From: Amycolatopsis tolypomycina
GTDB taxonomy: Bacteria; Actinomycetota; Actinomycetes; Mycobacteriales; Pseudonocardiaceae
Reading direction: 5' to 3'
Length of the DNA stretch: 64,000 bases
Assembly (NCBI RefSeq): GCF_900105945.1
Contig: NZ_FNSO01000004.1
Coordinates: 1,240,001 to 1,304,000, forward strand
In this document: piece after piece, positions 38,639 through 60,767 of the stretch
How the letters are laid out: every line of letters begins with the position of its first letter
Numbering within the stretch: position 1 is the stretch's first letter
Position numbers and translations under genes: made by a program
Notes under the pieces: generated by a model
Seen by the model: only the letters and a program-made list of their open reading frames with translations
Databases searched by the model: none
What the model was told of the DNA's origin: nothing

Positions 38639-38818
38639 TCACGCTGATGCCTCCACAATCACGCGTGATGCCCCTCCAGACACGCGTGATGCCTCCCTGA
38701 TCACGCGAGATGCCTCGTCCAGCACGTGAGATCCGGCCCCAATCACGTGAGATCCGGGCCCGATCACGCGAGTCCCGCCCCCAATCACGCGAGTCCCGCC
38801 CCCAATCACGCGAGACGG
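38639..38818. repeat. 21-bp-phased TCACGCG array A
   Basis: Nine units carry the core (A)TCACGCG or close variants at 38639, 38659, 38680, 38701, 38722, 38743, 38764, 38785 and 38806. Spacing is 20 bp once and then 21 bp seven times. Unit ends vary (TGATGCC, AGATCC, AGTCCC). The array lies between the convergent DUF3159 and ceoC genes. The rest of 38554-39007 holds only a 15-bp tandem duplication (GCGGAGGCCGAACCA, 38967-38996) and no gene. Confidence 0.85.
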
Positions 38819-39007
38819 CCAGGGCCCACGGCACGAGACCGGACGACACCCAGACCCCCGCAACCCCGATCCGAAGCCAGAACACGGCCGGCGGCGCCGG
38901 GGCAAGGCACGCTTTCCCGCCTTGACGCGGCGCTGCCGGCCGTAGTCACAATCAGGCTTCGGGGTGGCGGAGGCCGAACCAGCGGAGGCCGAACCAGAGG
39001 CAAAGCC

Positions 39008-39664
39008 TCAGTACCCGAGCGCCGTCCGAATCTCCGGCTCCACATCGGCAGTCGCGACGAAGAGCAGCTCGTCGCCAGGCTCCAGCGGGTCCTCCGGCTG
39101 CGGCACGATCACCCGGTCACCCCGCAGAATGGTCACCAACGCCGCATCCCGAGGCAGTGTCAGCTCGCTCACCGGCTTCCCGGCCAGCGGCGTCTCCGCC
39201 GGCAGCGTCAGCTCGACGAGGTTCGCGTTGCTCTGCCGGAACGTCATCAGCCGCACGAGGTCGCCGACGCTGACCGCCTCCTCGACCATCGCCGCCAGCA
39301 TCCGCGGGGTCGAGACGGCGACGTCCACGCCCCAGGCGTCGGTGAACAGCCACTCGTTGGCCGGGTTGTTCACCCGGGCCACCACGCGCCGCACCGCGAA
39401 CTCCGTCTTGGCCAGCAGCGAGACCACCAGGTTCGCCTTGTCGTCGCCCGTCGCGGCGATGACGACGTCGCACTGCTCGATCCCGGACTCCTCCAGGATC
39501 GACACCTCGCACGCGTCGCCGAGCACCCAGTCGGCCTGCTCGACCGCGTGCGGCTCGAACTGGTCGGCCTCGCGCTCGATCAGCATCACCTGGTGCCTGC
39601 CGTCGATCAGCTCGGCGGCGATGGAGCGGCCGACCGCCCCGGCGCCCGCAATCGCGACCCTCAT
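39008..39664 (-). CDS. ceoC: TrkA-family potassium uptake regulatory protein
   Basis: This 218-residue cytoplasmic protein has an RCK_N Rossmann domain (MRVAIAGAGAVGRSIAAELI, NAD-binding GxGxxG) and a C-terminal TrkA_C domain (VELTLPAETPLAGKPVSEL). It would gate a K+ channel or transporter in response to NAD(H) or nucleotides. ATG 39664 overlaps the stop of the upstream trkA-like gene (ATGA). The pair matches Rv2691/Rv2692 (ceoB/ceoC). No Trk membrane subunit is in the window. Confidence 0.9.
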   Translation of the reverse strand: MRVAIAGAGAVGRSIAAELIDGRHQVMLIEREADQFEPHAVEQADWVLGDACEVSILEESGIEQCDVVIAATGDDKANLVVSLLAKTEFAVRRVVARVNNPANEWLFTDAWGVDVAVSTPRMLAAMVEEAVSVGDLVRLMTFRQSNANLVELTLPAETPLAGKPVSELTLPRDAALVTILRGDRVIVPQPEDPLEPGDELLFVATADVEPEIRTALGY

Positions 39665-40326
39665 GCCTCGTCCTCCGGTTCGCGGTGGGCCACACTCGTC
39701 ACGTCGCTGACGGTGCCGGACCGCGCCGCCACCCACACGACGTCGTCGGCCTGCAGCACCGTCTTGGTGTCGGGCAGCACGCCGGTGCCGAAGCGCATGA
39801 TGAACGCCACCCGCGCGCCGGTCGCCTCCTGCAGGGACCGCACCGAGTGCCCGACCCAGCCCTCGTGCAGCGGCAGCTGCAGCAGCGCCACGTTGCCCGA
39901 CGGGTCACGCCACGCCGACGCGACGCCGTCCGGCAGCAGGGTGCGCAGGAACCGGTCGGTGGTCCACGGCACGGTCGCGACCGTCGGGATGCCCAGCCGC
40001 TCGTACACCGCCGCGCGCTTGTGGTCGTAGATGCGCGCGACGACGTGCTCGATGCCGAAGTTCTCGCGCGCGACCCGCGCCGAAATGATGTTCGAGTTGT
40101 CGCCGCTGGACACCGCCGCGAACGCGCCGGCCCGCTCGATGCCCGCCTCGATCAGCACCCGGCGGTCGAAGCCGACGCCGACGACCTGCTGGCCGTGGAA
40201 GTCGCTGCCGAGCCGGCGGAACGCCTGCTGGTTCTTGTCGATGACGGCCACCTCGTGGCCGAGCCGCTCCAGCGCAGCGGCCAGGGACGCGCCGACCCGG
40301 CCGCATCCCATGATCACCACGTGCAC
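39661..40326 (-). CDS. ceoB: TrkA-family potassium uptake regulatory protein
   Basis: This 221-residue protein is the first gene of the ceoB-ceoC pair. RCK_N begins VVIMGCGRVGASLAAALERL; the ligand Asp is in VAVIDKNQQ. The C-terminal half (NVALLQLPLHEGWVGHSVRSL) is a TrkA_C domain. It probably forms a gating ring with the second protein on a potassium transporter. GTG 40326 follows GGAGG with 6 nt spacing. It is divergent from the APC permease, with about 90 bp between starts. Confidence 0.9.
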   Translation of the reverse strand: MHVVIMGCGRVGASLAAALERLGHEVAVIDKNQQAFRRLGSDFHGQQVVGVGFDRRVLIEAGIERAGAFAAVSSGDNSNIISARVARENFGIEHVVARIYDHKRAAVYERLGIPTVATVPWTTDRFLRTLLPDGVASAWRDPSGNVALLQLPLHEGWVGHSVRSLQEATGARVAFIMRFGTGVLPDTKTVLQADDVVWVAARSGTVSDVTSVAHREPEDEA

Positions 40327-40405
40327 GCCCTGCCTCCTCCTCGGCGGTTACCCGTCCGACCTACCCCTATCCACCAGCGCCGAACCTACCGTGCCCCGGT
40401 GCCGT

Positions 40406-40411
40406 TAGGCT
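40406..40411 (+). promoter_or_regulatory. Candidate -10 (TAGGCT) for a leaderless transcript
   Basis: TAGGCT ends 6 bp before GTG 40418. This places the expected transcription start on the start codon of the APC permease. No ribosome binding site is present upstream of that codon, which fits a leaderless mRNA. The -35 region is not recognisable. Confidence 0.35.
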
Positions 40412-40417
40412 TTCGTG

Positions 40418-42451
40418 GTGTCGAAGTTCCCGACCGTGCTGAAACGCCTGGTCCTCGGACGTCCGTTCCGCAGTGACCGGCTGTCCCACACGCTGCTGCC
40501 CAAGCGCATCGCGCTGCCGATCTTCGCCTCCGACGCGCTCTCGAGCGTGGCGTACGCGCCGGAAGAAATTTTCCTGACGCTGAGCGTGGCGGGTCTCTCG
40601 GCGTACGCGCTGGCGCCGTGGATCGGCATCATGGTCGCCCTGGTCATGCTCGTCGTCGTCGCGTCCTACCGGCAGAACGTGCACGCCTACCCGAGCGGCG
40701 GCGGCGACTACGAGGTCGCCAACACGAACCTGGGCGGCAGGTTCGGCCTCACGGTGGCCAGCGCGCTGCTCGTCGACTACGTGCTCACCGTCGCGGTGTC
40801 CACTTCGTCCGGTGTGGCCAACATCGGCTCGGCGGTCCCGTGGGTGGCGCAACACAAAGTGCTCGCGTCGATCGTCATCGTGGTCGTGCTGACGTCGCTG
40901 AACCTGCGCGGCATCCGCGAGTCGGGCAAGGCCTTCGCGATCCCGACGTACGGCTTCATCATCGGCATCCTGCTCATGGTCGTCTGGGGCCTGGTCCAGG
41001 CCGCCACCGGCACCGAGATGAAGGCCGAGAGCGCCGGGTTCACGCTGAACGCCGAAGGCACCTTCGCGGGCGTCGCGTACGCGTTCCTGGTGCTGCGGGC
41101 GTTCTCCTCCGGCGCGGCCGCGCTGACCGGGGTCGAGGCGATCAGCAACGGTGTCCCGGCGTTCCGGAAGCCGAAGTCGAAGAACGCCGCGACCACGCTG
41201 CTGATGATGGGCGTGCTGGCGGTCACCATGCTGGTCGGCATCATCACCCTGGCCACGATCACCGACGTCAAGTTCGCCGAGGACCCGGCGACGCAGCTCG
41301 CCGGCGCGCCCGCGGGCTACGAGCAGAAGACGATCGTCGCGCAGATCGCGCACGCGGTGTTCGCCGACTTCCCGCCGGCGTTCTACTACATCTCCTTCTC
41401 CACCGGCATCATCCTGCTGCTGGCCGCCAACACCGCGTTCAACGGCTTCCCGGTGCTCGGCTCGATCCTGGCGCAGGACCGCTACCTGCCGCGGCAGCTG
41501 CACACCCGCGGCGACCGGCTGGCGTTCTCGAACGGCATCCTGTTCCTCGCGGCGTTCGCGCTGGTCCTGATCATCGCGTTCGACGCCGAGGTCACCCGGC
41601 TCATCCAGCTCTACATCGTCGGCGTGTTCGTGTCGTTCACGGTGAGCCAGGCCGGCATGATCCGGCACTGGAACCGGTTGCTGGCCAAGGAAACCGACCC
41701 GGGCGTGCGGCGGCGGATGCGGCGCTCGCAGACGGTCAACGCGATCGGCCTGACGATGACCGCGACCGTCCTGGTGATCGTGCTCATCACCAAGTTCCTG
41801 CTCGGCGCCTGGATCGCGATCGCCGCCATGGTGGCGATCTACGTGCTGATGACGGCGATCCGGCGGCACTACGACCGGGTGGCCGACGAGCTGAAGGACC
41901 TCGGCGACACCCCGACCGTGCTGCCCTCGCGCAACCACGCCATCGTCCTGGTGTCCAAACTGCACCGTCCGACGCTGCGCGCGCTGGCCTACGCCAAGGC
42001 GATGCGCCCGGACGTCCTCGAAGCCGTGACGGTCAATGTGGACGATGCGGACACGCGGCGCCTGACCCAGGAATGGGACGCGCACAACTTCAAGGTGCCG
42101 CTGAAGGTCGTCGAGTCGCCCTACCGCGAGATCACGAAGCCGGTGCTCGACTACGTGAAGCGCGTGCGCGGTGACAATCCGCGCAACGTGGTCACCGTGT
42201 TCATCCCGGAGTACGTGGTCGGGCACTGGTGGGAGCAGGTGCTGCACAACCAGAGCGCGCTGCGGCTCAAGGGCAGGCTGCTGTTCCAGTCCGGCGTGAT
42301 CGTGGCGAGCGTGCCGTGGCAGCTGGAGTCGTCGGCCAAGGCGGCCGCGCGGGTCCGGAACGAGCGCCCGGCGGCCGGCGACGTCCGCCGCGGGTTCTCG
42401 GCCAACGGGAAGCCGGTCGCGGCGCCGAAGCCCAAGGAGCCTGCCGAATGA
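40418..42451 (+). CDS. APC-family permease with C-terminal cytoplasmic domain (Rv2690c-like)
   Basis: This 677-residue protein has about 12 membrane helices in residues 30-480 and a soluble C-terminal domain of about 190 residues. The first helices contain PIFASDALSSVAYAPEEIFLT, typical of the KUP-like/APC group related to Rv2690c. SYRQNVHAYPSGGGDYEVA is a conserved substrate-loop segment. The tail (HAIVLVSKLHRPTLRALAYA) resembles a USP-like domain and may sense a nucleotide. It probably imports amino acids or potassium; the divergent TrkA pair would fit the latter. GTG 40415 or 40418 starts it. Confidence 0.85.
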   Translation: MSKFPTVLKRLVLGRPFRSDRLSHTLLPKRIALPIFASDALSSVAYAPEEIFLTLSVAGLSAYALAPWIGIMVALVMLVVVASYRQNVHAYPSGGGDYEVANTNLGGRFGLTVASALLVDYVLTVAVSTSSGVANIGSAVPWVAQHKVLASIVIVVVLTSLNLRGIRESGKAFAIPTYGFIIGILLMVVWGLVQAATGTEMKAESAGFTLNAEGTFAGVAYAFLVLRAFSSGAAALTGVEAISNGVPAFRKPKSKNAATTLLMMGVLAVTMLVGIITLATITDVKFAEDPATQLAGAPAGYEQKTIVAQIAHAVFADFPPAFYYISFSTGIILLLAANTAFNGFPVLGSILAQDRYLPRQLHTRGDRLAFSNGILFLAAFALVLIIAFDAEVTRLIQLYIVGVFVSFTVSQAGMIRHWNRLLAKETDPGVRRRMRRSQTVNAIGLTMTATVLVIVLITKFLLGAWIAIAAMVAIYVLMTAIRRHYDRVADELKDLGDTPTVLPSRNHAIVLVSKLHRPTLRALAYAKAMRPDVLEAVTVNVDDADTRRLTQEWDAHNFKVPLKVVESPYREITKPVLDYVKRVRGDNPRNVVTVFIPEYVVGHWWEQVLHNQSALRLKGRLLFQSGVIVASVPWQLESSAKAAARVRNERPAAGDVRRGFSANGKPVAAPKPKEPAE

Positions 42452-43635
42452 CCAGCTGGCTGGGCCGGGTCCTCGAGGTCGAGGTGGGCGCGGTGGCGCA
42501 CGGCGGGCACTGCGTCGCGCGCGCGGACGGGCGGGTCGTGTTCGTCCGGCACGCGCTGCCGGGCGAGCAGGTCCGCGTCGAGATCACCGAGGACAACGGC
42601 GGTTCGTTCTGCCGCGGGGACGCGATCGAGGTGCTTTCGGCGTCGCCGCACCGGGTGCCGCCGCCGTGCCCGCTGGCGGTGCCCGGCGGCTGCGGCGGCT
42701 GCGACTGGCAGCACGCGGACCCGGACCACCAGCGTTCGCTCAAGGCGTCGGTCGTGGCGGAGCAGCTGCGGCGGCTGGCGGGGATCGAGCGCGAGGTCGT
42801 CGTGGAGGCCCTCGACGGCGGGCCGCTGGACTGGCGCAGCCGGGTCCGGCTGGTCGCCGGGCGCGACGGCCGTGCCGGGCTGCGCGCCCACCACAGCCAC
42901 CGCGTGGTGGCGCTGGACGACTGCCCGATCGCGGTCCCCGGCGAGCTCGACGACGTCCTGGCGCGGCGCTGGCGGCCGGGCAGCGAGCTGGAGGTCACCC
43001 GCGACGGTGACGGCGACGTGCACGTCCGGGAGCTGTCGACCGTGCGCGGGAAGGTGCGGGCGCGGCAGCTGAGCGGCGGCGTCGCGGTCCAGCACGCGGC
43101 GGGCCGCGACTGGCGCCTCGACGCACACGGCTTCTGGCAGGTCCACCCGGCGGCGGCGTCGACGCTGGCCGCGGTCGTGGGGGAGTGGGCGGAGGCTCCG
43201 TCCGGGGGCACGGCCTGGGACCTCTACGCGGGGGTCGGGCTGTTCGCCTCGGTGCTGGCGGCGCAGGTCGGCGCTTCGGGCCACGTGCTGGCGGTCGAGT
43301 CCGGCCGGCGCGCGGTCGCCGACGGCGAGCGCAACCTCGCGGACCTGCCGCAGGTTTCGTGGCGTGCGGGGCGCGTGGAGCACGTGCTGGCGTCGGCGGC
43401 CAAGCCGGTCGACGTGGTGGTGCTGGACCCGCCTCGCAAGGGCGCGGGCAAGGCGGTCGTGGAGTCGATCGTGGCAGGTTCACCCGATCGAGTCGTGTAC
43501 GTGGCCTGCGACCCGGCGGCACTGGCCCGTGACCTGGCGTTCTTCAGCGCCCACGGCTATTCGCTGACGGATTTGAGGGCGTTCGACGCGTTCCCGATGA
43601 CCCACCACGTGGAGTGCGTGGCGCTGCTGTCCTGA
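42448..43635 (+). CDS. TrmA/RumA-family RNA (uracil-5-)-methyltransferase
   Basis: This 395-residue protein methylates uridine C5 in rRNA or tRNA with AdoMet. An N-terminal TRAM domain (residues about 1-62) is followed by Cys74, Cys82 and Cys85 (PPPCPLAVPGGCGGC), probable ligands of a 4Fe-4S cluster. The AdoMet motif WDLYAGVGLFASVLA lies near residue 257. The catalytic Cys354 is in VYVACDPAALARDL and the base Glu in HHVECVAL. It corresponds to Rv2689c. Its ATG overlaps the permease stop codon. Confidence 0.9.
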   Translation: MTSWLGRVLEVEVGAVAHGGHCVARADGRVVFVRHALPGEQVRVEITEDNGGSFCRGDAIEVLSASPHRVPPPCPLAVPGGCGGCDWQHADPDHQRSLKASVVAEQLRRLAGIEREVVVEALDGGPLDWRSRVRLVAGRDGRAGLRAHHSHRVVALDDCPIAVPGELDDVLARRWRPGSELEVTRDGDGDVHVRELSTVRGKVRARQLSGGVAVQHAAGRDWRLDAHGFWQVHPAAASTLAAVVGEWAEAPSGGTAWDLYAGVGLFASVLAAQVGASGHVLAVESGRRAVADGERNLADLPQVSWRAGRVEHVLASAAKPVDVVVLDPPRKGAGKAVVESIVAGSPDRVVYVACDPAALARDLAFFSAHGYSLTDLRAFDAFPMTHHVECVALLS

Positions 43636-43639
43636 GTTT

Positions 43640-43662
43640 TTGTCGGTGGTGGTCGCCACACT
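43640..43662 (+). promoter_or_regulatory. RecA-NDp/PafBC-like promoter, probably leaderless
   Basis: TTGTCGGTG at 43640-43648 matches the consensus tTGTCRGTG exactly. After 8 bp comes CACACT (43657-43662) at the -10 place, which departs from TAnnnT at the first base. ATG 43669 lies 6 bp further, where transcription would start. In mycobacteria this motif drives LexA-independent, PafBC-dependent DNA-damage induction. Confidence 0.5.
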
Positions 43663-43668
43663 GTCGCC

Positions 43669-44232
43669 ATGACCGAATTCGATGACTTCGACCTCGCGGC
43701 TTCAACGGTGACCGGCCTGGTCACCGCGGTCCGTGCCGACCAGTGGGCGCACCCGACGGCGTGCCAGGACTGGGACGTGCGCGCGGTGGTGAACCACCTG
43801 GCGCACGGAAACGCGAAAGTGGCGTTCTGGGCGGGCGCGGGCCCGCCGGTCCCGGACGGCGATTACCTGGGGCCGTCGCCCGTTTCGGCGTTCGCCGCAT
43901 CGGTGGCGGCGGCCCGGGCGGTGCTGGCCGCACCCGGGCTCCTCGCGCGGCAGGTGACAACGCCGCTCGGTGAGGTGCCGGGGGTGTTCCTGGTGCACAT
44001 GAGGGTGAACGAGTACCTCGCCCACGGCTGGGACATCGCGGACGCGACCGGGCAGCCGACGGACCTGCTGCCCGACCTGGCGGCCCAGGCGCTGGCGCAG
44101 TGGCGCACCCGGTTCGGCTCGACGCCGAGGCAGCCGGGCGGCCCGTTCGGCCCGGAGATCCCGGCACCCCCGGACGCAACGGCGGCCGACCGGCTGGCGG
44201 CGTTCCTCGGCCGGAAGGCGGTGAACGGCTAG
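43669..44232 (+). CDS. TIGR03086/mycothiol-dependent maleylpyruvate isomerase-like (DinB superfamily)
   Basis: This 187-residue protein has the four-helix DinB/MDMPI N-terminal fold. Likely metal-binding His residues are in VRAVVNHLAHG (about residue 43) and EYLAHGWDIADATG (about residue 117). Members of this family act with mycothiol or are induced by DNA damage; the reaction here is unknown. There is no ribosome binding site, and a PafBC-type promoter lies directly upstream, which supports a leaderless damage-induced gene. The gene ends about 140 bp before repeat array B. Confidence 0.8.
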   Translation: MTEFDDFDLAASTVTGLVTAVRADQWAHPTACQDWDVRAVVNHLAHGNAKVAFWAGAGPPVPDGDYLGPSPVSAFAASVAAARAVLAAPGLLARQVTTPLGEVPGVFLVHMRVNEYLAHGWDIADATGQPTDLLPDLAAQALAQWRTRFGSTPRQPGGPFGPEIPAPPDATAADRLAAFLGRKAVNG

Positions 44233-44374
44233 AGACCAGGCTTCCGGCCCGAGAACGGCGGCCGGACCGGGCGGGGTCGCCACGTTCCGGTGCTCGGCAG
44301 GTGCTTTCGGTGGTCGCAGGGGCGATTCGGCGGTGGTCGGGGTTCGGCGGGCCGGCGCGGGGTTGCGTGCACGC

Positions 44375-44467
44375 TGTCGCGTGTCGACCTTCCAGTCACG
44401 CGTGTCGACCCTCCAGTCACGCGTGTCGACCCTCCAGTCACGCGTGTCGGCCCTCCAGTCACGCGGG
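44375..44467. repeat. 21-bp-phased TCACGCG array B, left part
   Basis: Five units start at 44375, 44396, 44417, 44438 and 44459, all 21 bp apart. The unit is TCACGCGTGTCGACCCTCCAG with small changes. The last unit is cut after TCACGCGGG by the IS3 element. The preceding stretch 44233-44374 shows no gene or element. Confidence 0.9.
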
Positions 44468-44531
44468 TGGAGTTGCCCCGTGGGGCCGGACACCTTGATT
44501 CCAGACAGTGGTCTGGAGGGAGGATGTCCTG

Positions 44532-44822
44532 ATGTCTTCCAGGTCGAAGTATCCGGAGCAGTTCCGACGGGACGCGGTCGAGCTGGTCAACTCGAGTGAC
44601 CGGCCGTTGCGGCAGATCGCCCGCGAACTAGGGGTCAACCACGAGACCCTGCGGGCGTGGGTCAACACCGCCAAGCAGGCCGCGGAGGCCGGGCCGCCGG
44701 CAGAAGACCCGGCGGAGGCCCTGGAGGTGACGCGGTTGCGGAAGCAGGTCGCTGAGCTGCAGAAAGAGAAGGAGATCCTGCGGAAAGCGGCCGCCTATTT
44801 TGCGCGCGAGATGGATCGATGA
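44532..44822 (+). CDS. IS3-family transposase OrfA
   Basis: This 96-residue DNA-binding subunit has a helix-turn-helix (YPEQFRRDAVELVNSS, then IARELGVNHETLRAWV) and a C-terminal leucine-zipper-like coiled coil (VTRLRKQVAELQKEKEILRK). ATG 44532 follows GGGAGGA by about 8 nt; GTG 44508 is an in-frame alternative. The stop overlaps the orfB ATG (ATGA). The fused OrfAB transposase is expected to arise by -1 frameshifting near the end of orfA; TTTTG at about 44799 is one possible slip site, not proven. Confidence 0.9.
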   Translation: MSSRSKYPEQFRRDAVELVNSSDRPLRQIARELGVNHETLRAWVNTAKQAAEAGPPAEDPAEALEVTRLRKQVAELQKEKEILRKAAAYFAREMDR

Positions 44823-45700
44823 TCTACCGCTACCGGTTCATCTCCGAACACCGCGCCATCTACGGCGTCAAGCGGTTGTGCCAGGTCCTGGGCCTGCGCC
44901 GGCAAGGCTTCCACGAATGGGTCGCCGCCGAAGCAGCCCGGATCCGCCGGGCGGAGGCCGAGGCCGAACTGGTCCGGCTGATCACCGAGATCCATGCCGA
45001 ACACCAGGGTGCCTACGGCGTCCCGCGGATCACCGCCGAACTGCACCGCCGCGGGATCGTGGTGAACCACAAGCGGGTCGAGCGGCTCATGCGCGCACAC
45101 GACCTGGCCGGGATCACCCGCCGCAAACGCCGAGCGTTGACCCGGCCTGCGGCCGGCCCGGTCACCCCAGCACAGGACCTGATCCGCCGCGACTTCACCG
45201 CCGAGAAACCCGGGACACGGCTGGTCGGGGACATCACCTGCCTGCCCACCTTCGAGGGCTGGCTCTACCTGGCCACCGTCATCGACCTGCACACCCGGGA
45301 GGTCATCGGCCACGCCATGGCCGACCACATGCGCACCGACCTCGTCTGCGACGCCATCGACCTCGCGACCGCCCGCGGCCTCATCCAGCCCGACGCGGTG
45401 TTCCACTCCGACCGCGGAGTCCAATACACGAGCAGCCAGTTCCGGGCCGCCCTCGCCGAGCACCGGATCCGCCCGTCGGTCGGGCGGGTGGGGTCCTGCT
45501 ACGACAACGCCGTCGCCGAAGCCTTCTTCGCCACCCTGAAGACCGAAATCGGTGTCTCGATCTGGCGCACCCGCGCCGAGGCGCGCCAGGACGTGTTCAC
45601 CTGGCTGCACTACTACAACCACAACCGGCTGCACTCAACGGTCGGCCAGAACACCCCAGCCGAAGCCCGAATCAACTATCGTCAGGCCTCAGCTGCCTGA
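44819..45700 (+). CDS. IS3-family transposase OrfB (DDE integrase domain)
   Basis: This 293-residue protein has the N-terminal HTH_21 segment (YGVPRITAELHRRGIVVNHK) and an rve integrase core. The DDE triad is Asp138 (VGDITCL), Asp198 (HSDRGVQY) and Glu234 (AVAEAFF), with the 35-residue D-E spacing typical of IS3. A Lys/Arg follows at the expected distance. The frame is complete, so the element may still be active. Start ATG 44819 overlaps the orfA stop. Confidence 0.93.
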   Translation: MIYRYRFISEHRAIYGVKRLCQVLGLRRQGFHEWVAAEAARIRRAEAEAELVRLITEIHAEHQGAYGVPRITAELHRRGIVVNHKRVERLMRAHDLAGITRRKRRALTRPAAGPVTPAQDLIRRDFTAEKPGTRLVGDITCLPTFEGWLYLATVIDLHTREVIGHAMADHMRTDLVCDAIDLATARGLIQPDAVFHSDRGVQYTSSQFRAALAEHRIRPSVGRVGSCYDNAVAEAFFATLKTEIGVSIWRTRAEARQDVFTWLHYYNHNRLHSTVGQNTPAEARINYRQASAA

Positions 45701-45733
45701 AAACCCCGTGTCCGCCTCACCGGGGCAACTCCA

Positions 45734-45970
45734 CGGGTCGGCCGTGTGGGTGCGCGTGTCGACCCTCCAGTCACGCGTGTCGGCCCTCCAGTCACGCGGG
45801 TCGGCCGTGTGGGTGCGCGTGTCGACCTTCCAGTCACGCGTGTCGACCCTCCAGTCACGCGTGTCGACGCTCCAGTCACGCGGGTCGGCCGTGTGGGTGC
45901 GCGTGTCGACCTTCCAGTCACGTGGGTCGGCCGTGTGGGTGCGCGAGTCGACCCCTGGGGTGCGCGGGTC
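45734..45970. repeat. 21-bp-phased TCACGCG array B, right part
   Basis: Eleven units continue the array at 45750, 45771, 45792, 45813, 45834, 45855, 45876, 45897, 45918, 45939 and 45960, all 21 bp apart. Two unit types are mixed: TCACGCGTGTCGACC-CTCCAG and GTGCGCGTGTCGACC, with linker GGGTCGGCCGTGTGG. Removing the IS and one CGGG leaves 21 bp between units 44459 and 45750. Confidence 0.9.
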
Positions 45971-45990
45971 ACCCGATGCATGCTGCGGGA

Positions 45991-46142: not shown

Positions 46143-46577
46143 TCAGCCTGCCCGGCGCACCGCGAACGCCGCGGCCAGCCCGGTCACCGTCATCGCCACG
46201 CCCGACACCAGCAGCACCCACGCTCCCGCACCCGGGGCGATCCGGGCCGAGGGCTGGAAGCGGGCCACGTGCGGCAGCGTCACCACCAGGTGCCGCAGCA
46301 CCACGCCGGTCACCACCAGGCCGGGCAGGCACGCCATCGCCAAAGGCTCGTCGCGGTTGCGGACCAGCGTCAGGTACGTCAGCGTGCCCGCCGCGAGCAC
46401 CGCCGCCGCGCACACCAGGCGGAGGCTCACCGCCAGCTCGGGGTCGGGCGTGCCCGGATCCAGCACGCCCGCGTGCCGGGCCGTGCGCAGGGTCAGCCCG
46501 GCGATCACCCCGAGCCCGGCCGCGGCCGCCAGGACCGCGCGCGGGACCCGGCTGCGCCTGCCCGGTCGCTGCTGCAC
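46143..46577 (-). CDS. Four-helix membrane protein of unknown function
   Basis: This 144-residue protein starts with a basic segment (QQRPGRRSRVPR) and has four hydrophobic helices (about residues 14-30, 50-70, 82-100 and 117-138). No motif or family is recognised. It ends in repeat-rich DNA and follows the aldehyde dehydrogenase gene by 21 bp on the same strand, so it may be the last gene of that transcript. The GTG start is the first in frame but lacks a clear ribosome site. Confidence 0.6.
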   Translation of the reverse strand: MQQRPGRRSRVPRAVLAAAAGLGVIAGLTLRTARHAGVLDPGTPDPELAVSLRLVCAAAVLAAGTLTYLTLVRNRDEPLAMACLPGLVVTGVVLRHLVVTLPHVARFQPSARIAPGAGAWVLLVSGVAMTVTGLAAAFAVRRAG

Positions 46578-46598: not shown

Positions 46599-48068
46599 TC
46601 AGCCCCCGAACCAGTGTTGCGGTCCCGGGCGCAGGTTCTGGTAGATGTGCTTGACCTCGGTGTACTCGGCCAGCCCCGTCGGGCCCAGCTCGCGGCCGAA
46701 CCCGGACTGCTTGTAGCCGCCCCACTCGGCCTGGGGCAGGTACGGGTGGAAGTCGTTGATCCACACCGTCCCGTGGCGCAGCCGTCCGGCGACCCGCTGC
46801 GCCCGCGAAGCGTCGTTCGTGAACACCGCGCCGGCCAGTCCGTAGTGCGTGTCGTTGGCGATGCGGACCGCGTCGTCCTCGTCGGTGAACGTCTCGACCG
46901 TCAGGACCGGGCCGAACGACTCGTCGACGACCGCCGACGACCCCTGTTTCACCTGGTCGAGGATGGTCGGCAGGTAGTAGAAGCCGTCGGCGAGGGCCGG
47001 GTCGTCCGGGCGGCGGCCGCCCGTGCGCAGCACCGCGCCCTCGGCCAGCGCCGCCGCCACGTACGCCTCGACCTTCTCGCGGTGCGCCGCCGAGATCAGC
47101 GGGCCCGTTTCGGCCTGCGCGTCGAACGGGCCGCCGAGGCGGATCCGCTCTGCCCGGCGCACCAGCTCGTCGACGAACTCGTCGTGCCACTCGCGCTGCA
47201 CGATCAGCCGCGCGCCCGCCGAGCACACCTGGCCCGAGTGCAGGAACACCGCCGTCAGCGCGTAGTCGACCGCGGTCTCGAAGTCGGCGTCGGCGAACAC
47301 CACGTTCGGGTTCTTCCCGCCCAGCTCCAGTGCCACCTTCTTGACCGTCCCGGCGGCCGCCGCGGCGATCACCTTGCCGGTCGCCAGGCCGCCGGTGAAC
47401 GACACCAGGTCGACGTCCGGGTGGGACGCCAGCGGCGCGCCCGCCTCGGCGCCCGCGCCGAGCACCAGGTTGCCCGCGCCCGGCGGCAGGCCGGCCTCGG
47501 TGAGCAGCTTCATGAACAGGATCGCCGTGTGCGGGGTCAGCTCGCTGGGCTTGAGCACGAACGTGTTGCCCGCGGCCAGCGCGGGCGCGATCTTCCACAC
47601 GGTCTGCAGCAGCGGGTAGTTCCAGGGCGTGATCAGCCCGCAGACACCGACCGGCTCGTGCACGATCCGGCTGATCGCGTCCGGGTTGCCGGTGTCGACG
47701 ACGCGCCCGGCGTCCTGGGCCGCGAGCTTGCCGAAGTAGCGCAGGCAGGCGGCGATGTCGGCCATGTCGTAGCGGCTCTCGACCAGGCGCTTGCCGGTGT
47801 CGAGCGACTCGGCGCGGGCGAACGCCTCGGCGTCGCGGTCGAGCAGGTCCGCGGTGCGCAGCAGCAGGTCGCCGCGCAGGTGCGCGGGCGTGGCGGGCCA
47901 CGGACCGGTGTCGAACGCCCGGCGCGCCGCCGCGATGGCGGCCTCGGTGTCCTTCGCGGTGCCCTCGGCGACCGTCGCGACCAGGGAACCGTCGGCCGGG
48001 CAGCGGATCTCGCGGCGCCCGCCGTCCACCGCGTCCACCCATTCGCCGCCGATGAAGAAATCCGCCAT
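46599..48068 (-). CDS. Aldehyde dehydrogenase, betaine-aldehyde dehydrogenase-like
   Basis: This 489-residue NAD(P)+-dependent enzyme shows the ALDH pattern: [33 protein letters not shown] (cofactor site), the general base Glu in [14 protein letters not shown] and the nucleophile Cys in [11 protein letters not shown]. It resembles BetB/GbsA enzymes that oxidise betaine aldehyde or aminoaldehydes. No choline dehydrogenase is nearby, so the substrate stays open. Starts at ATG 48068 and 48077 are both possible. It is divergent from dxs. Confidence 0.85.
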
Positions 48069-50157: not shown

Positions 50158-50168
50158 GTGAACCGTTT

Positions 50169-55686: not shown

Positions 55687-55691
55687 TGCTG

Positions 55692-57182
55692 TCACTCCTG
55701 ATTCTCGGGAAGGGGCACTTTTACGTGAAAGTGCCCTGGCGGTGCGGGCTCCGGGGCACTTTCACGTGAAAGTGCCGGCTCGGCGCCGGCGAGGCGGCGG
55801 GTCCAGACGGAGAGAACGGCGTCGGACGTGCGGGGCGTCGCGAGGCTGACCGCCAGGTACACGACCAGGCTCACGCCGAGACCCCAGTAGATCGGGGTGT
55901 TGGCGTCGACGCCGTCGATGACCATGAATGCGATGACCGAGATCGTGCCGGCCACCATCGACGCGTACGCGCCCTGGCGCGTGCCGCGCTTCCAGAACAG
56001 CGCGCCGACGATCGCCACCAGCAGGCCGCCGACCAGGATGTCGTAGGCGATGGTGAGCGCGTTGACGACGTCGTCGACGATCATCGCGATGCCGATGGCC
56101 AGCAGGCCGAGCAGCAGCGTGGCGATCCGGTTGCGGCTGACCTCGCCGCCCTTCTTCAGGCCCAGCTTGGTGAGCAGGTCCGACGTCGTCGTGGTCGAAC
56201 ACGCGATCAGCGCGCCGCTTGCCGTCGACATCATCGCCGAGAGCGCGGCGGCCAGCACCAGGCCGCGGACGCCGGTGGGCAGCAGGCGTTCGACGATCGT
56301 CGCGAAGGCGTCCTGCGCGCTGGCGATGTCCGGGTAGAGCGTGTGCGCGGCGGTGCCGATGAGCGCGCCGGCCAGGCCGTAGACGAGGCAGTAGACGCCG
56401 GAGGTGATGCCGCCGGACGTCGCGATCGCCGGCGTGCGGGCGGTGAAGACGCGCTGCCAGATGTCCTGGCCGATCAGCAGGCCGAAGGTGTAGATCACGA
56501 AGTACGTGATGATCGTGTCGGTGCCGATCGCGGTGAAGCTGAAGAAACTCGCGTCGAGCTTCTCGCTCATCCCCGAGAAGCCGCCCGCCGACGAGATCGC
56601 CACCGGCAGCAGGATCAGCAGGATGCCGATGGTCTTGATGACGAACTGCGCGATGTCGGCGAGCGTGATCGACCACATGCCGCCGAGCACCGAGTAGAGC
56701 ACCACGATCGAGCCGCCGATCGCGATCCCGGCCCAGTTCGGCAGGTCGAACAGCACCTTGAAGATCGTCGCGAAGGCCAGCGTCGAGGTCACCGTGAGCA
56801 TCAGCGTGTAGCCCCACATGACGACGCCGGACACCGCGCTGGTGCGGCCGCCGTAGCGCAGGTCGAGCATCTCGCCGACGGTGTAGACCTTCAGCCGCAC
56901 CAGCCGCCGCGCGAACAGCGCGTGCAGCACCAGGATGCCGACGCCGATGCTGACGACCAGCCACATCCCGGAGATGCCGTAGGTGTAGCCGAGCTTCACG
57001 CCGCCGACCGTCGACGCGCCGCCGAGGACGACGGCCGACATCGTCCCGGAGTACATGAACCAGCCCAGCCGCCGCCCGGCGACGAGGTAGTCCGACTTCG
57101 TCTTCGCGAGCCGGAGGCCGTACCAACCGACCCCGAGCATGGCCGCGATGTACAGCGCGATCACTGCGTAGTCGCCGGTCAC
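55692..57182 (-). CDS. Sodium:solute symporter (SSS family)
   Basis: This 496-residue protein has about 13 membrane helices with the SSS features [42 protein letters not shown] and [21 protein letters not shown] (sodium site region). It probably imports the operon substrate with Na+. GTG 57182 follows GAGGAGG by 5 nt, an excellent ribosome site, so it leads the operon. The C-terminal tail after TRRLAGAEP is unlike normal transporter sequence and is encoded by two palindromic repeats. A divergent PucR regulator starts 97 bp away. Confidence 0.9.
55713..55776. repeat. CACGTG-centred palindrome, copies 2 and 3, in coding sequence
   Basis: Copy 2 (55713-55736, 24 bp with one T-G mismatch) and copy 3 (55755-55776, 22 bp perfect) share the core GGCACTTTCAC plus complement with the glgB-downstream copy. 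Both lie within the last 35 codons of the symporter gene and keep its frame. They encode HFHVKVP and ALSRESA respectively. Confidence 0.85.
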
Positions 57183-57279
57183 GGTGTCCTCCTCACGTCG
57201 TTTCGGGTCACCGTAGGTTCGCCCGCGGTCTCCGTGGCATGGGATGATTCGTCCCTATGTCGACTTGAGTGAGGACGAA

Positions 57280-58773
57280 ATGGCCACAGCCGCGGATTCG
57301 TTGTCCACGGAGGTGAATGTCCCGTTACGGGACGTGGTCGGCAACCGGGAGCTCGCCCTGGAAGTCGTCCCCGAGACCCTGCGGCCGGGTGCGCTGGACC
57401 TGCCCGTGCGCTGGGCCCACGTCAGCGAGCTGCAGGATCCCGCGCCCTACCTGCTGGGCGGCGAGCTGATCCTCACCGCGGGCGTCAACCTGCCCGAGCG
57501 GATCGACGGGTACGTGCGCGGGCTGCGGGACGCCGGCGTCACGGCGCTCGGCTTCGGCCTCACCCCGTCGGTGCACGAGACGCTGCCGGAGTCCCTGCGC
57601 CGGGCCTGCGCGCGCCGCGGGCTGCCGCTGCTCGTGGTGCCGTCGCGCACGCCGTTCCTGGCGGTCAACCGGGCCGTCTCGGTCGCGCTGACCGAGGCCG
57701 GGCAGCGCGACCAGCGGCGGATCACGGCGGCCCGCGAGACGTTGACGCGTGCGGCCGGCGGCGGGCTCGGCGAACTGACGTCGGCGCTGGCGGACGTGCT
57801 GCGGTCGTGGGTCGCCCTGGTCGGCGCCGGGGACGTGCTGGCTTCGGCGCACGACGCGCCGGTGCCGCTGCCGCCCGAGGTGCGCGAGCTGATGGCGACC
57901 GTGCGGGCGGGCAGCGGGATCCGGAGCGCGACGACGGAGACCGACGGCGGGTTCGTCGTCGTCCAGCCGGTGTACCCGCAGGCCACGGCGTCGCACCTGG
58001 TGGTCGTCGGCAGGCGCGCGCGGCTCGACGGCGCCGAGCGGACGATCCTCGCCGTCGGCGCGGCCCTGCTCGGCCTGGTCGGCCGCGCGGGCTCGGACGC
58101 GGCCGAGCTGGGCGCGGCGGCCACCGGCCTGCTGCTCGGCCGGACGTCGCCCGGGGAGGTGGCCCGGGCGCTGCTGGGCGCGGACGTCGTCCGGCTGGTC
58201 GCCGGGGCGGCGTACCGGCGGGGGCCGGACGAGGTGGCCCAGCGTGCGGACTGGCTGCGCGCCCGGCTGGACACGCCGCTGGTTTCGGTGCGGCCGGGGA
58301 CGTTCGTGGCGGTGGCCGGCTCGGTCCCGCGGCTGGAAGACCTGCGTGCCCACGGCTGGCTGGCGGCGGTGGGGTCGCCGGTGCCGGCTGCCCAGGCGGC
58401 CTCGGCGGGGGCCGAGGTGGAGCTGCTGCTGGCGCGGGCGCTGGCGCTCGGCCGCCCGGTCGTGGCCGGGAGCGAGCCGCTCGACTTCGAGGCCCTGCTG
58501 GACCCGGGCGCCTCCCGCGGGTTCGCCTCGCGGGCGTTGGCGCCGCTGGTGGCCCTCGACGAGGCCGGCGACCGGTCGTTGGTGCTGACGCTGCGGACGT
58601 GGCTGGCCCACCACGGCGGCTGGGAACCGACGGCCGCGGAACTGGGCGTGCACCGGAACTCCGTGAGGCACCGGATCGCGCAGGTGGAGCGGGCTTTGGA
58701 CGTGGACCTGGCGGACCCCGAGACCCGGATGCGGCTGTGGTTCGCGCTGCGCTGGATGGCACAGGGTCCTTAA
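57280..58773 (+). CDS. PucR-family transcriptional regulator
   Basis: This 497-residue regulator has an N-terminal PucR domain (PLRDVVGNRELALEVVPE, YLLGGELILTAGVNLPER), a central sensory region and a C-terminal HTH_30 domain (WEPTAAELGVHRNSVRHRIAQVE). PucR-type proteins control purine, amino acid or polyamine catabolism. Being divergent from the symporter-ureohydrolase operon, it most likely controls that operon; the effector is unknown. ATG 57280 follows GAGGA closely, and the earlier ATG 57244 lacks a ribosome site. No clear dyad operator was found in the 97-bp gap. Confidence 0.85.
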   Translation: MATAADSLSTEVNVPLRDVVGNRELALEVVPETLRPGALDLPVRWAHVSELQDPAPYLLGGELILTAGVNLPERIDGYVRGLRDAGVTALGFGLTPSVHETLPESLRRACARRGLPLLVVPSRTPFLAVNRAVSVALTEAGQRDQRRITAARETLTRAAGGGLGELTSALADVLRSWVALVGAGDVLASAHDAPVPLPPEVRELMATVRAGSGIRSATTETDGGFVVVQPVYPQATASHLVVVGRRARLDGAERTILAVGAALLGLVGRAGSDAAELGAAATGLLLGRTSPGEVARALLGADVVRLVAGAAYRRGPDEVAQRADWLRARLDTPLVSVRPGTFVAVAGSVPRLEDLRAHGWLAAVGSPVPAAQAASAGAEVELLLARALALGRPVVAGSEPLDFEALLDPGASRGFASRALAPLVALDEAGDRSLVLTLRTWLAHHGGWEPTAAELGVHRNSVRHRIAQVERALDVDLADPETRMRLWFALRWMAQGP

Positions 58774-58808
58774 AGGGCACTCTCAGGAAAATATGGGATT
58801 GTGGGCTC

Positions 58809-59489
58809 GTGCGAGTTTTGGTAGTCGAGGACGAAGAACCCCTGGCCGACGCGATCGCCCGCGGGCTGCGCCGTGAGGGGATGGCGGTGGACGTCGCGCT
58901 CACCGGGGACGACGGGCACGAGAAGGCCGCCGTCACGCGGTACGACGTCGTGCTGCTGGACCGGGACCTGCCCGGGATGTCCGGCGACGAGCTGTGCCGG
59001 GAGATCGTCGCCTCCGGGGAGCTGACCCGGGTGCTGATGCTCACCGCGAGCAGCTCGGTGTCCGACCGCGTCGAAGGGCTGTCGCTCGGCGCCGACGACT
59101 ACCTCGCCAAGCCGTTCGCCTTCCCCGAGCTGGTCGCGCGGGTGCGGGCGCTGGGCCGCCGGGCCACGCCGGCCGCGCCGCCGCTGCTCACCGCCGGCGA
59201 CGTCGAACTCGACCCGGCCAAACGCACGGTCCGGCGCGCGAGCGGGCCGGTGGAGCTGACGCGCAAGGAGTTCGGCGTCCTCGAGGTCCTGCTGCAGGCC
59301 GCCGGGTCCGTCGTCAGCAGCGAAGAACTCCTCGAACGCGTCTGGGACGAGAACGCCGACCCGTTCACCACGACCGTCCGGGTCACCGTCATGACGCTGC
59401 GCAAGAAGCTCGGCGAGCCGGGGATCATCGAGACCGTCGTCGGCTCCGGGTACCGCGTGCCGGAACCCGGCACACCGCAGCGCGCGTGA
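58809..59489 (+). CDS. OmpR/PhoB-family response regulator
   Basis: This 226-residue protein has a receiver domain with EDEE at residues 7-10, phospho-acceptor Asp51 (VLLDRDLPG) and Lys near 101 (YLAKPFAF), and a winged-helix DNA-binding domain from about residue 128 (LTRKEFGVLEVLLQAAG, TTTVRVTVMTLRKKLG). It acts with the following kinase, which it overlaps by GTGA. The GTG start 58809 lies 35 bp after pucR. Target genes are not evident. Confidence 0.92.
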   Translation: MRVLVVEDEEPLADAIARGLRREGMAVDVALTGDDGHEKAAVTRYDVVLLDRDLPGMSGDELCREIVASGELTRVLMLTASSSVSDRVEGLSLGADDYLAKPFAFPELVARVRALGRRATPAAPPLLTAGDVELDPAKRTVRRASGPVELTRKEFGVLEVLLQAAGSVVSSEELLERVWDENADPFTTTVRVTVMTLRKKLGEPGIIETVVGSGYRVPEPGTPQRA

Positions 59490-60610
59490 ACCTGCCGGGC
59501 ACCCGCACCCTCCGCGCCCGGATCACCCTGCTGGCGACCGTGCTGGTCGCCGCCGTCAGCCTGCTGCTGCTCTGGCTGGCCTGGACGCTGGTGCGGGACT
59601 CGCTCGACACCGTCCCGCAGATGCCGCCGGGCAGCGTGGTCGTCGTCGACGGCGTCACGGTCGACGCCTCGACGCTGTCCGAGCACCTGCGCGTGCACGC
59701 CCGCGACCGGATGCTGCTGTTCGGCTCGATCGCGTTCCTGCTGGTGGTGGCGGCCGCGGCGATCCTCGCCTGGACGTTCACCTCCCGCGTCCTGCTGCCG
59801 CTGCGCGAGATCACCGGCACCGCGCGGCGGCTGTCGGTCGAGTCGCTGGGGGAGCGGATCGGCGAGATCCGGTCCCGCGACGAGCTGGCCGAGCTGGCGA
59901 GCACGTTCGACGACATGCTCGACCGGCTCCAGGCCGCCTTCGACGCGCAGCGGCATTTCGTGGCGAACGCGAGTCACGAGCTGCGGACGCCGTTGTCGGT
60001 GATCCGCACGGAACTCGACGTCACCCTCGCCGACGACGACGCCGACGAAGCCGAGCTGCGGCGGATGGCCGGCGTGGTCCGCGACGCGACCGAGCGGGCC
60101 GGGCAGCTGGTGAACTCCCTGCTGCTGCTGGCCCGCACCGACGGTGCCGGGCTGGGCGTGCACGAGCCGGTGGACCTGGCGGTCGTCGTCGACCGGGCGT
60201 GGCGGGCGGTGCAGCGGGAAGCCGCGCAACGCGGCATCCGGGCGACGTTCGCCGTGGTGCCCGCGTCGGCGTTCGGCGACCCGGCGCTGCTGGAGCGGAT
60301 CGCGGGCAACCTGCTGGAGAACGCGGTCCGCCACAACGTCGACGGCGGCTGGCTGGAGGTCGTGACCCAGCCGGGGCCGCGGTGGTCGACCCTGCGCGTC
60401 CGGTCTTCGGGCGGCCTGGTCGACCCGGCGGCGGTGCCGGAGCTGTTCGAGCCGTTCCGCCGCGCCGGGGTCGCCCGCACGGCCCGCCACGGCGCGGGTC
60501 TCGGGTTGTCGATCGTCCGGGCCGCGGTGTCGGCCCACGGCGGAACGGTCACGGCCGAGCCCATCGTGGGCGGCGGCCTCGGCGTCACGGTCCACCTCCC
60601 CGCCCACTGA
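59486..60610 (+). CDS. Sensor histidine kinase (HisKA/HATPase type)
   Basis: This 374-residue kinase has two membrane helices (about residues 12-35 and 75-98) flanking a short extracellular loop of about 40 residues, then a HAMP domain (LLPLREITGTARRL). The H-box is NASHELRTPLSVI with His164. The ATP domain shows the N-box LLENAVRHN and GAGLGLSIV. The small sensor loop suggests it senses the membrane or a partner protein. It ends just before repeat array C. Confidence 0.92.
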   Translation: MNLPGTRTLRARITLLATVLVAAVSLLLLWLAWTLVRDSLDTVPQMPPGSVVVVDGVTVDASTLSEHLRVHARDRMLLFGSIAFLLVVAAAAILAWTFTSRVLLPLREITGTARRLSVESLGERIGEIRSRDELAELASTFDDMLDRLQAAFDAQRHFVANASHELRTPLSVIRTELDVTLADDDADEAELRRMAGVVRDATERAGQLVNSLLLLARTDGAGLGVHEPVDLAVVVDRAWRAVQREAAQRGIRATFAVVPASAFGDPALLERIAGNLLENAVRHNVDGGWLEVVTQPGPRWSTLRVRSSGGLVDPAAVPELFEPFRRAGVARTARHGAGLGLSIVRAAVSAHGGTVTAEPIVGGGLGVTVHLPAH

Positions 60611-60767
60611 CCCGTGATCGAGCACGAATCTCGCGTGATCGGGAGCGGAACTCGCGTGATCAGAGGCGGATCTCGCGTGATTGGAGGCGGATCTCGCGAG
60701 TTCCGTGCTCAATCACGCGAGATCCGGCCTCAATCACGCGAGTTCCGTGCTCGATCACGCGGTGGGG
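60611..60767. repeat. 21-bp-phased TCACGCG array C, with internal inversion
   Basis: Eight units occur at exact 21-bp steps (core starts 60612, 60633, 60654, 60675, 60696, 60717, 60738, 60759). The first four read CTCGCGTGAT, the last three read ATCACGCG, and the middle one is CTCGCGAG. The array is thus an imperfect large palindrome. It lies between the convergent kinase and esterase genes and supplies the esterase stop codon. Confidence 0.88.

Follow-up and report, generated by a model that had tools for sequence, protein, structure and literature searches.

Dispersed 21-bp arrays with a CWCGCGWG core, mostly between convergent genes, in Amycolatopsis

The window, that is, the whole stretch of 64,000 nucleotides analysed here, contains three arrays of a symmetric 8-mer, CWCGCGWG, repeated with a period of 21 bp. 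A chance origin of such arrays is excluded by two counts in the same genome. In 864 kb, 13 core chains (at least three cores with at most one mismatch, at least two of them perfect) were found at period 21; 14 alternative periods in the range from 17 to 32 each gave none, and period 42 appeared as a harmonic of 21. In the whole genome, 216 exact TCACGCG-N14-TCACGCG pairs (100 + 116) were found, compared with 0 for the reversed pattern used as control. Read from the sequence, the arrays are further characterized by a helical phase held over most inversions, a convergent bias, conservation of sites and cores, turnover of linkers and targeting by an insertion sequence (IS).

Arrays and insertion sequence in the window

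The coordinates of the arrays, the IS and the flanking genes are shown in Table 1. The preliminary description listed three 21-bp-phased loci with 9, 16 and 8 units, and all of these read out in a 21-bp register. Its core, TCACGCG / CGCGTGA, is common to the arrays but forms only part of CWCGCGWG, whose four forms reveal the orientation of each unit; the core palindrome is 8-12 bp long. Linkers are 13 bp long, alike inside arrays and partly so across arrays. A CRISPR array, with unique spacers and repeats of about 23-47 bp, was therefore rejected, as had been proposed.

Table 1. Arrays, insertion sequence and neighbouring genes in the window
Feature	Position	Strand	Description
Gene left of A1	37834..38553	+	DUF3159 (Pfam)
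Array A1	38637..38818	+	9 units, period 21; tandem-repeat scan
Gene right of A1	39008..39664	-	TrkA_N / TrkA_C (Pfam)
Gene left of A2	43669..44232	+	MDMPI_N (Pfam)
Array A2, left part	44375..44467	+	5 units, type TCACGCGTGTCGACCCTCCAG, reaching the IS; tandem-repeat scan
IS target duplication, A2 copy	44464-44467		CGGG, 4-bp
IS3-family insertion sequence	44468..45733	+	Inside A2; ends TGGAGTTGCCCCG..CGGGGCAACTCCA inverted
IS orfA	about 44532-44822	+	HTH_Tnp_1 (Pfam)
IS orfB	44819-45700	+	rve, HTH_21 (Pfam)
Array A2, right part	45734..45971	+	11 units, 84-bp higher-order pattern; tandem-repeat scan
Gene right of A2	46143..46577	-	Called by codon usage; without Pfam match
Next called gene beyond	46599-48068	-	
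Gene left of A3	59486..60610	+	Histidine kinase: HAMP, HisKA, HATPase_c (Pfam)
Array A3	60611..60761	.	8 units, inverted; CGCG kept in 7/8
Gene right of A3	60730..61800	-	Abhydrolase_3 (Pfam)

Units of A1 have a single orientation throughout, and two of the nine are the palindrome CACGCGTGAT. The second locus, earlier taken as 1.6 kb of array (44375-45970), is a single array of 16 units (5 + 11) split by an IS3-type insertion sequence. When the flanks are joined without the IS, the 21-bp lattice is continuous and the left and right parts are in phase. In A3, CTCGCGTG units are followed by the centre unit CTCGCGAG and then by CACGCGAG units, with every CGCG on a single 21-bp register. A3 occupies the whole gap from the histidine kinase gene (+) to the Abhydrolase_3 gene (-), the final codons of which, as called, overlap the array.

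The inserted element has the features of the IS3 family: an orfA with a helix-turn-helix, an orfB with an integrase core, inverted ends and a target duplication in the range of 3-5 bp. A search by end pattern identified five copies in the genome, all five within an array core and each with a 4-bp duplication (CTCT, CACG, CGGG, CGTG, CTCG). This suggests that at least one protein, the IS transposase, reads the core word.

Spacing and helical phase

Among successive perfect cores at most 35 bp apart in the named Amycolatopsis loci, the spacing was 21 bp in 326 cases, 20, 22 and 23 bp once each, 31 bp twice and 32 bp once. Adjacent linkers in these loci differ at 31% of their bases. Inverted neighbour units mostly lie near whole helical turns apart, at about 31, 42 and 52 bp, in keeping with the early claim that the cores face the same side of the DNA; the inverted neighbours, too, mostly fall near multiples of 10.5 bp. 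A tally by hand of the 75 forward places listed for opposite-orientation neighbours in five genomes gave a distance of 42 bp in 42 places, 41 in 8, 31 in 9, 52 in 8 (six of them 31+21), 51 in 2, 50 in 1, 32 in 2, and 27, 35 and 39 once each. In 12 arrays with truncated centres and unrelated loops, all 15 offsets deviated from a multiple of 10.5 by no more than 1.5 bp, and a Rayleigh test of spacings at 10.5 bp gave R = 0.82 (n = 39); these phase counts take in homologous arrays. Arrays of a different core, GGCGAGTT, in genome G148 also have the half-step (9, 10, 10, 10 and 10 in five arrays).

Other orientation classes are less tidy, with 12 of 75 listed places at other distances. Stray single spacings of 16, 17, 23, 54, 58, 59 and 69 were seen, and one GGCGAGTT array (L330, judged by eye) is 2 bp out of phase. 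A strict orientation rule that places every minus unit to the left of the plus units, suggested by a first list, fails, as plus-then-minus arrays were found in relatives and in the own genome (S2 114585 and L129). The preliminary description had overlooked that many arrays are inverted, with long hairpins possible on both strands. Whole-turn spacing would not be expected if a 21-bp unit were simply copied; it speaks for proteins, or the shape of the DNA, along a single face of the helix. Relative to previously known constant-size repeats, the phase held through most inversions is new.

Location and conservation

Each of the three arrays in the window is flanked by convergent genes, as first described; elsewhere this holds for only about 60%, leaving about 40% in non-convergent positions. 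Arrays are nevertheless far commoner between convergent genes than expected from controls, as had been predicted. In unbiased stretches of the own genome, 10 of 16 arrays were convergent, compared with 13.5% of gaps. The corresponding numbers were 51/81 (control 34/332) for other Amycolatopsis, 13/19 (control 3/64) for four other genera and 11/19 (control 7/60) for GGCGAGTT-core arrays of three array-poor Amycolatopsis. The count of 51/81 excludes 22 non-Amycolatopsis stretches among the 120 named ones; with them it is 54/95. Divergent gaps are avoided. A coding repeat, likewise dismissed at the outset, was rejected, as none of 18 array clusters in the own-genome stretches lies inside called genes. 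None of 99 Amycolatopsis arrays is in a gene; three other arrays are, all of them in the 22 non-Amycolatopsis stretches. No tRNA was found by a tRNA search at six own-genome loci around non-convergent arrays.

The 21-bp period is maintained in other loci, species and genera, which the preliminary description had made a condition of its reading. The three array-poor Amycolatopsis have 21-bp arrays built on GGCGAGTT. A search for paired GGCGAGTT listed mostly scattered pairs at other distances; among the places listed, clear 21-bp arrays were found in G148, G158 and G162 only. The highest paired-GGCGAGTT counts belong to G180, outside the listed places. In relative G173, an array is present at 8 of 10 compared sites, including the site orthologous to A1, where it also runs in one direction. 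Over six site pairs between the own genome and G173, identity is 0.91 in cores and 0.76 elsewhere, the former biased upward because cores were chosen in one genome. Unit number and linkers turn over rapidly between species, and in other genera the units within arrays are near-identical and young-looking. A 3-unit match is missing from 37 of the 79 genus relatives, so a genome can do without the element or replace it. Of the 80 genus genomes, 35 are array-rich, and A. rifamycinica is an example of a laboratory strain that bears arrays. Array-lacking G003 showed no marked autocorrelation at lag 21 when its convergent gaps were analysed independently of the core (z 1.6); 21-bp arrays are thus not universal in the genus.

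Possible role and comparison with known systems

The array may be a cis-acting DNA element with near-palindromic CWCGCGWG sites aligned along the same side of the B-form helix. A putative dimeric DNA-binding protein would occupy these sites cooperatively and, at the 3' ends of genes, form a short filament or wrap confined to one side. This structure would be a boundary between convergent genes that halts RNA polymerases reading through from either gene, retains the positive supercoils gathering there, or does both. The transcript of inverted arrays might also fold as a long hairpin and add to termination. The protein, its cooperativity and the boundary or termination role are parts of the model that we infer, and cooperative one-face binding at gene ends, setting a boundary to transcription from both directions or to DNA topology, is given an even chance of being correct. 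A point against it is that any repeat harmful near promoters would also gather between convergent genes.

Two-way RNA terminators or mRNA 3'-end hairpins, the array being one of several interchangeable hairpin families, are a rather doubtful alternative. Many arrays are inverted with long hairpins on both strands (z < -2 in 24 of the 29 arrays in the inverted class), which makes an RNA role possible. At the A3 site, relatives without the array carry another long perfect or near-perfect hairpin in four of five listed cases, compatible with a terminator role needing no protein. Some arrays adjoin a separate conserved hairpin (S1 197824), and G003 has many other dispersed hairpins in its convergent gaps. 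In the own genome, 12 of the 30 convergent arrays are flanked on either side by no more than 30 bp, which leaves little space for an additional terminator. Strong both-strand hairpins are, however, absent from 13 of the 18 arrays in the direct-only class and marginal in A1 (z -2.2/-2.3). A simple scan for intrinsic terminators (GC hairpin, then U-tract) gave no site at A1, A2 or A3, and window positions 38000-62000 gave no Rfam match. Strong covariation of opposite-linker pairing was rejected; the arm-swap test gave a weak signal (z 2.4-2.6), so linker base pairing is not the main thing kept. The 10.5 bp of DNA also fit the spacings somewhat better than the 11 bp of A-form RNA (R 0.82 vs 0.74).

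A selfish or neutral repeat, in which slippage or template switching makes 21-bp units and inverted copies that survive away from promoters, would agree with the fast change of unit number and linkers, the young-looking units of other genera, the patchy distribution and the avoidance of divergent gaps. It is unlikely in view of the half-turn spacing at non-homologous junctions, the near absence of 20- and 22-bp spacings although linkers diverge by 31%, core conservation above the surroundings and the retention of an array at 8 of 10 sites. The arrays could also be wrapping sites of gyrase or another topoisomerase that relieve positive supercoils through DNA bendability, with no dedicated protein. 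Their convergent location and a period conserved despite different cores fit, and the accessible parts of two papers report a positive-supercoil reader enriched in convergent gaps of E. coli and yeast (PMC8360656) and gyrase bound by REP elements (PMC1525189). Core conservation presumably exceeds what bendability alone would require, and this explanation is very improbable.

An extension of the cooperative-binding reading is put forward tentatively: Pseudonocardiaceae might mark hundreds of mostly convergent junctions with helix-phased operator arrays for a dedicated fast-evolving protein. Core and protein would change together from lineage to lineage (CWCGCGWG or GGCGAGTT) with the two-turn spacing unaltered, and the arrays would serve as two-way boundaries of transcription and topology. 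If true, bacteria would have an equivalent of insulators, and the so far unexplained 20-23-nt repeats of constant size in other bacteria would be accounted for. Location at convergent 3' ends offers a concrete testable role in transcript ending or supercoil management, and gene junctions that bear an array in some Amycolatopsis species but not in others provide an existing natural experiment.

ParR/parC centromeres and plasmid iterons consist of tandem sites of about 20-22 bp with cooperative binding on one face, confined to one or a few plasmid loci, whereas the Amycolatopsis arrays are dispersed over the chromosome at gene ends. Intrinsic two-way terminators share the convergent 3' ends and the hairpin potential of inverted arrays; the arrays differ in the missing U-tract at the three window arrays, in the many cases lacking a strong hairpin and in the phase of about 10.5 bp. 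No paper describing the Amycolatopsis arrays was found by title or abstract opening, the subscription literature being mostly beyond reach.

Constant-size bacterial tandem repeats of 20-23 nt, about two helical turns, were described by Subirana and Messeguer, in Actinobacteria among others, as mostly non-coding, species-specific families of variable sequence with a characteristic short word kept; a protein was proposed whose polymerisation along DNA depends on repeats of constant size (PMC8161180, available part). The Amycolatopsis arrays are alike in two-turn size, variable sequence, kept word and mostly non-coding location. Their length is fixed at 21 bp, other periods being absent or single, and linkers vary while CWCGCGWG is kept, a core for which the search pattern itself selects. 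The repeats and the idea of a binding protein are thus already known from that source, in the main text of which 'convergent' and 'palindrom' are absent. New beyond its available part are the convergent location, inverted architecture, half-turn phase, cross-genus core, IS targeting and orthologous-site conservation.

The nearest functional analogue is REP/BIME. The REP/BIME unit is a palindrome of 20-40 bp that folds alone, in contrast to the 21-bp phased site of the arrays, and one-direction arrays occur here, unlike in REP/BIME. The likeness lies in many dispersed extragenic copies, a preference for 3' ends and convergent gaps, and alternating orientation (PMC1525189, available part), the 21-bp arrays being extragenic, present in many copies and preferentially convergent. 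REP/BIME are also targeted by specific IS elements, including the IS3-family IS1397 and ISKpn1 (PMC1525189, same part), as the arrays are by all five copies of one IS.

Arrays and core of the window

Base-by-base reading in lines of 21 bp agreed with Tandem Repeats Finder, which gave period 21 for A1, A2 and A3 alike, and the unit counts (9, 16 and 8) and period of the preliminary description were confirmed. The shared word TCACGCG named there is present, but is only one part of the symmetric core CWCGCGWG: in A3, seven successive units keep CGCG in one 21-bp register while the flanks go from CTCGCGTG over CTCGCGAG to CACGCGAG, and because the register is held despite the changing flanks, the symmetric word is the real core. 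Near one end of A3, and also at loci L023 and L133, a TGA lies inside the sense unit; some genes as called stop within the first unit, so array and stop codon overlap at these places.

Arrays, insertion sequence and other repeats of the window
Feature	Window position	Units	Remarks
A1	38637-38818	9	one orientation
A2	44375-44467 + 45734-45971	16 = 5 + 11	two parts with insertion sequence between
IS3-family insertion sequence	44468-45733		encodes HTH_Tnp_1 and rve (Pfam)
A3	60611-60761	8	inverted arrangement
TGA inside sense unit	60730-60761		
GCGGAGGCCGAACCA	38967-38997		exact 15-bp repeat just past A1, two copies
30-bp-period element on GTCATGAAnGACTCGTTCATGAC	20460-20516 and 33172-33228		two copies; resembles one hairpin family of relative G003

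Abundance, gene context and distribution

TCACGCG-N14-TCACGCG has 216 exact matches in the genome of A. tolypomycina (10.36 Mb, four contigs; positions were listed for the first 100), and the pattern read backwards has 0. Two stretches were sampled without regard to arrays, C4:1000001-1464000, which contains the window, and C4:5000001-5400000. They hold 13 chains of at least three cores at period 21 and none at 14 other periods tried (17-32). None of 18 clusters lies within a called gene, as expected from the earlier statement that the arrays are non-coding. Joining of two pairs split by the insertion sequence left 16 arrays, of which 10 are convergent (binomial p ~1e-5; the array at position 130231 of stretch S1 was scored tandem, using a loose gene call and its orthologue). 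The background is 58 convergent gaps among 431 of at least 30 bp (13.5%), or 14.7% of intergenic bases. The claim that all arrays lie between convergent genes holds for the three of the window; elsewhere it stands as a strong excess (about 60% of arrays), but not as a rule. The 40 match-centred clusters, which include some duplicates from overlapping loci, divide into 21 convergent and 15 tandem ones, with 4 unresolved.

The search for three phased cores matched 61 of 390 genomes of the family, this genome included, and so recovered the 21-bp period in other species. A count of the table splits the 79 genus relatives into 35 with at least 16 matches, seven with 1-5 and 37 with none; outside the genus, nine genomes of five genera have at least seven. 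Beyond the family but within the order, 24 genomes were searched for two units: one had a single match and the other 23 lacked the pattern. The whole genome of G286 (genus g50) gave 13 matches to the reversed control, the highest value in the table, from another tandem repeat.

A scan of named genomes returned at least 120 stretches; those listed comprise Amycolatopsis (98), Pseudonocardia (2), Prauserella (1) and other taxa (19, mostly single matches in MAGs). Enrichment between convergent genes extends to these genomes. In the Amycolatopsis stretches listed, convergent genes flank 51 of the 81 arrays whose context was resolved, 18 further arrays at a locus edge not being among them; control gaps of the same stretches give 34 of 332 (p ~6e-22). 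In four other genera the corresponding figures are 13 of 19 and 3 of 64. Divergent gaps are under-represented: over all 120 stretches listed they account for 5 of 95 arrays against 137 of 379 control gaps. Units within one array of the four genera are mostly near-identical copies, with linkers (the bases between cores) unlike those of Amycolatopsis; core and period are the same, both being demanded by the search pattern itself.

Conservation, replacement and phase

The relative G173 has an array at the same place at 8 of 10 sites compared, most with flanks 86-95% identical, and none at the sites of A2 and S1 355598. At the latter (L045 ~11460-11700; C4:1355.5 kb) the array of A. tolypomycina is seemingly flanked by a direct repeat of ~45 bp from the end of the adjacent gene, which looks like a joint arrival of array and duplication. 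Unit numbers and linkers differ between the two genomes, and the one-direction or inverted design is mostly preserved (one-direction at the A1 site, inverted at the A3 site); at S1 413315 it is mixed in one genome and one-direction in the other. Over six site pairs, core bases are 91% identical and the other bases of the aligned stretches 76%, a comparison flattered by the picking of cores in one genome. Alignment gaps within arrays measure 20-22 bp in A3, 130k and 352k, and A1 has none; for the 123k and 413k pairs the alignment is poor, with many small gaps. Successive cores at most 35 bp apart in named Amycolatopsis loci are spaced by 21 bp in 326 cases and by 20, 22 and 23 bp once each, although 31% of bases differ from one linker to the next.

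The A3 junction was compared in five relatives lacking this array, with both flanks mapped in the listed direction. G003, G152 and G168 have 0 three-unit matches genome-wide; G153 and G160 have arrays at other sites. In four of the five the junction has long hairpins of the GTCGTGAGTG..CACTCACGAC kind, perfect or nearly so; G152 has a short GGCGAGTT-type 21-bp array besides, and G168 has just a 15-bp gap. As hairpins occupy the junction in relatives without the array, array and hairpin can substitute for each other at a given site. Convergent gaps of G003 (C1:5300001-5700000, L101-L120) hold several other dispersed hairpin families, none with a U-tract: GCACTTTCACGTGAAAGTGC; AAGGGGACGTTC../GAACGTCCCCTT; CCCAATGTGGCGTT../AACGCCACATTGGG; CGCGAATGACTCATT..; GTCATGAACGACCC..; and CGTGAGTGTTCAG...CTGAACAC.

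Paired GGCGAGTT found 21-bp arrays in G148, G158 and G162 among the matches listed. Gene context could be assigned to 19 of 20 such loci: 11 lie in convergent, 6 in tandem and 1 in divergent gaps, and 1 overlaps a called gene (control, 7 of 60 convergent). Locus L327 (G158 C1:8240510-8248853) has a 42-bp higher-order unit of two alternating 21-bp types, with eight successive 42-bp matches. Inverted centres in five G148 arrays have offsets of 9, 10, 10, 10 and 10 bp; four more matches of that pattern (34, 22, 7, 17) lie well outside arrays, and L330, read by eye, has 23.

Mere copying of a 21-bp unit could place orientation switches at any distance; contrary to this, they mostly avoid arbitrary distances. 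For CTCGCGTG followed by CACGCGAG (75 forward places among the matches listed, in G030, G021, G006, G147 and G150, counted by hand), CGCG-to-CGCG distances are 42 bp (42 places), 41 (8), 31 (9), 52 (8, six being 31 + 21), 51 (2), 50 (1), 32 (2, an ordinary palindrome), and 27, 35 and 39 once each. The looser opposite pattern CACGCGWG..CWCGCGTG, whose matches include palindromic and one-direction units as well, gave 42 bp (45), 41 (1), 50-53 (12) and 29-30 (5) by hand count of 75 listed forward places; the other 12 are 23, 24, 26, 28, 34, 37, 38 (twice), 39, 44, 48 and 49, four of them in genomes with at most one three-unit match. In the A. tolypomycina and named loci, the 28 '-' to '+' pairs at most 70 bp apart show only the distances 21, 31, 32, 41, 42, 62 and 63, and other orientation classes include off-phase 16, 17, 23, 54, 58, 59 and 69 once each and several of 50-53. 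For centres that consist of a truncated core around an unrelated loop, 15 offsets were measured in 12 arrays, and every one deviates by no more than 1.5 bp from a multiple of 10.5. The Rayleigh length over 39 junctions, excluding exact 42-bp distances of the CTCGCGTG-then-CACGCGAG set, is 0.82 at 10.5 bp (nominal p 5e-12, too small as some junctions are homologous) and 0.74 at 11 bp. Separate sets are best fitted by periods of 10.05-10.35 bp, closer to B-DNA than to A-form RNA (11 bp), over a distance range too short to fix the value.

Hairpins, insertion targets and related systems

Both strands of 47 arrays of A. tolypomycina (at most 300 bp including some flank) were folded, with 30 shuffles apiece for comparison. 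Both strands had z below -2 in 24 of 29 arrays classed inverted, a class defined by presence of both CGCGTGA and TCACGCG in which palindromic units count as both, so that A1 (z = -2.2/-2.3) is in it; the direct-only class had 5 of 18. Opposite linkers match at 7.08 of 11 bases within an array against 6.49 between arrays (z 2.6), or 7.76 against 7.17 of 13 (z 2.4); direct neighbours match at 9.67 against 6.03. Real arms at 21 junctions folded to a mean of -88.7 against -81.9 for swapped arms and were better in just 12. Hairpins are thus common, and linker pairing is weakly maintained at most. The U-tract terminator scan at A1, A2 and A3 and the Rfam search of window 38000-62000 gave no match. 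At most 30 bp is left on either side of 12 of 30 convergent arrays of A. tolypomycina, so for those gene pairs transcripts are ended by the array or by nothing in the gap.

Constant-length tandem repeats of 20-21 or 52 nt, variable in sequence around a short characteristic word, are described in PMC8161180, which equates the shorter length with two helical turns, lists Actinobacteria among the bearers and proposes a protein that requires constant repeat size for polymerising; the main idea of the preliminary description is thereby already published for the general class. A table of PMC6749651 has an entry for A. mediterranei, to which it seems to assign 23 satellites. Neither PMC6749651 nor PMC8161180 uses the word 'convergent' in its main text. 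PMC8360656 reports a positive-supercoil reader enriched at convergent gaps in E. coli and yeast. The arrays belong to the constant-size repeats of 20-23 nt, to which they add inversions, a common core and convergent position, a combination for which no description was found in the literature searched. By analogy, they may work like a phased operator array with REP/BIME-like habits. REP elements are insertion targets of the IS3-family elements IS1397 and ISKpn1, according to PMC1525189. The arrays are likewise hit by an IS3-family element: all five copies found by end pattern in the genome of A. tolypomycina lie within an array, every 4-bp duplication falls in a core (CTCT, CACG, CGGG, CGTG, CTCG; two of the five target cores with one mismatch), and the split array at C4:1180 kb is intact in G173.
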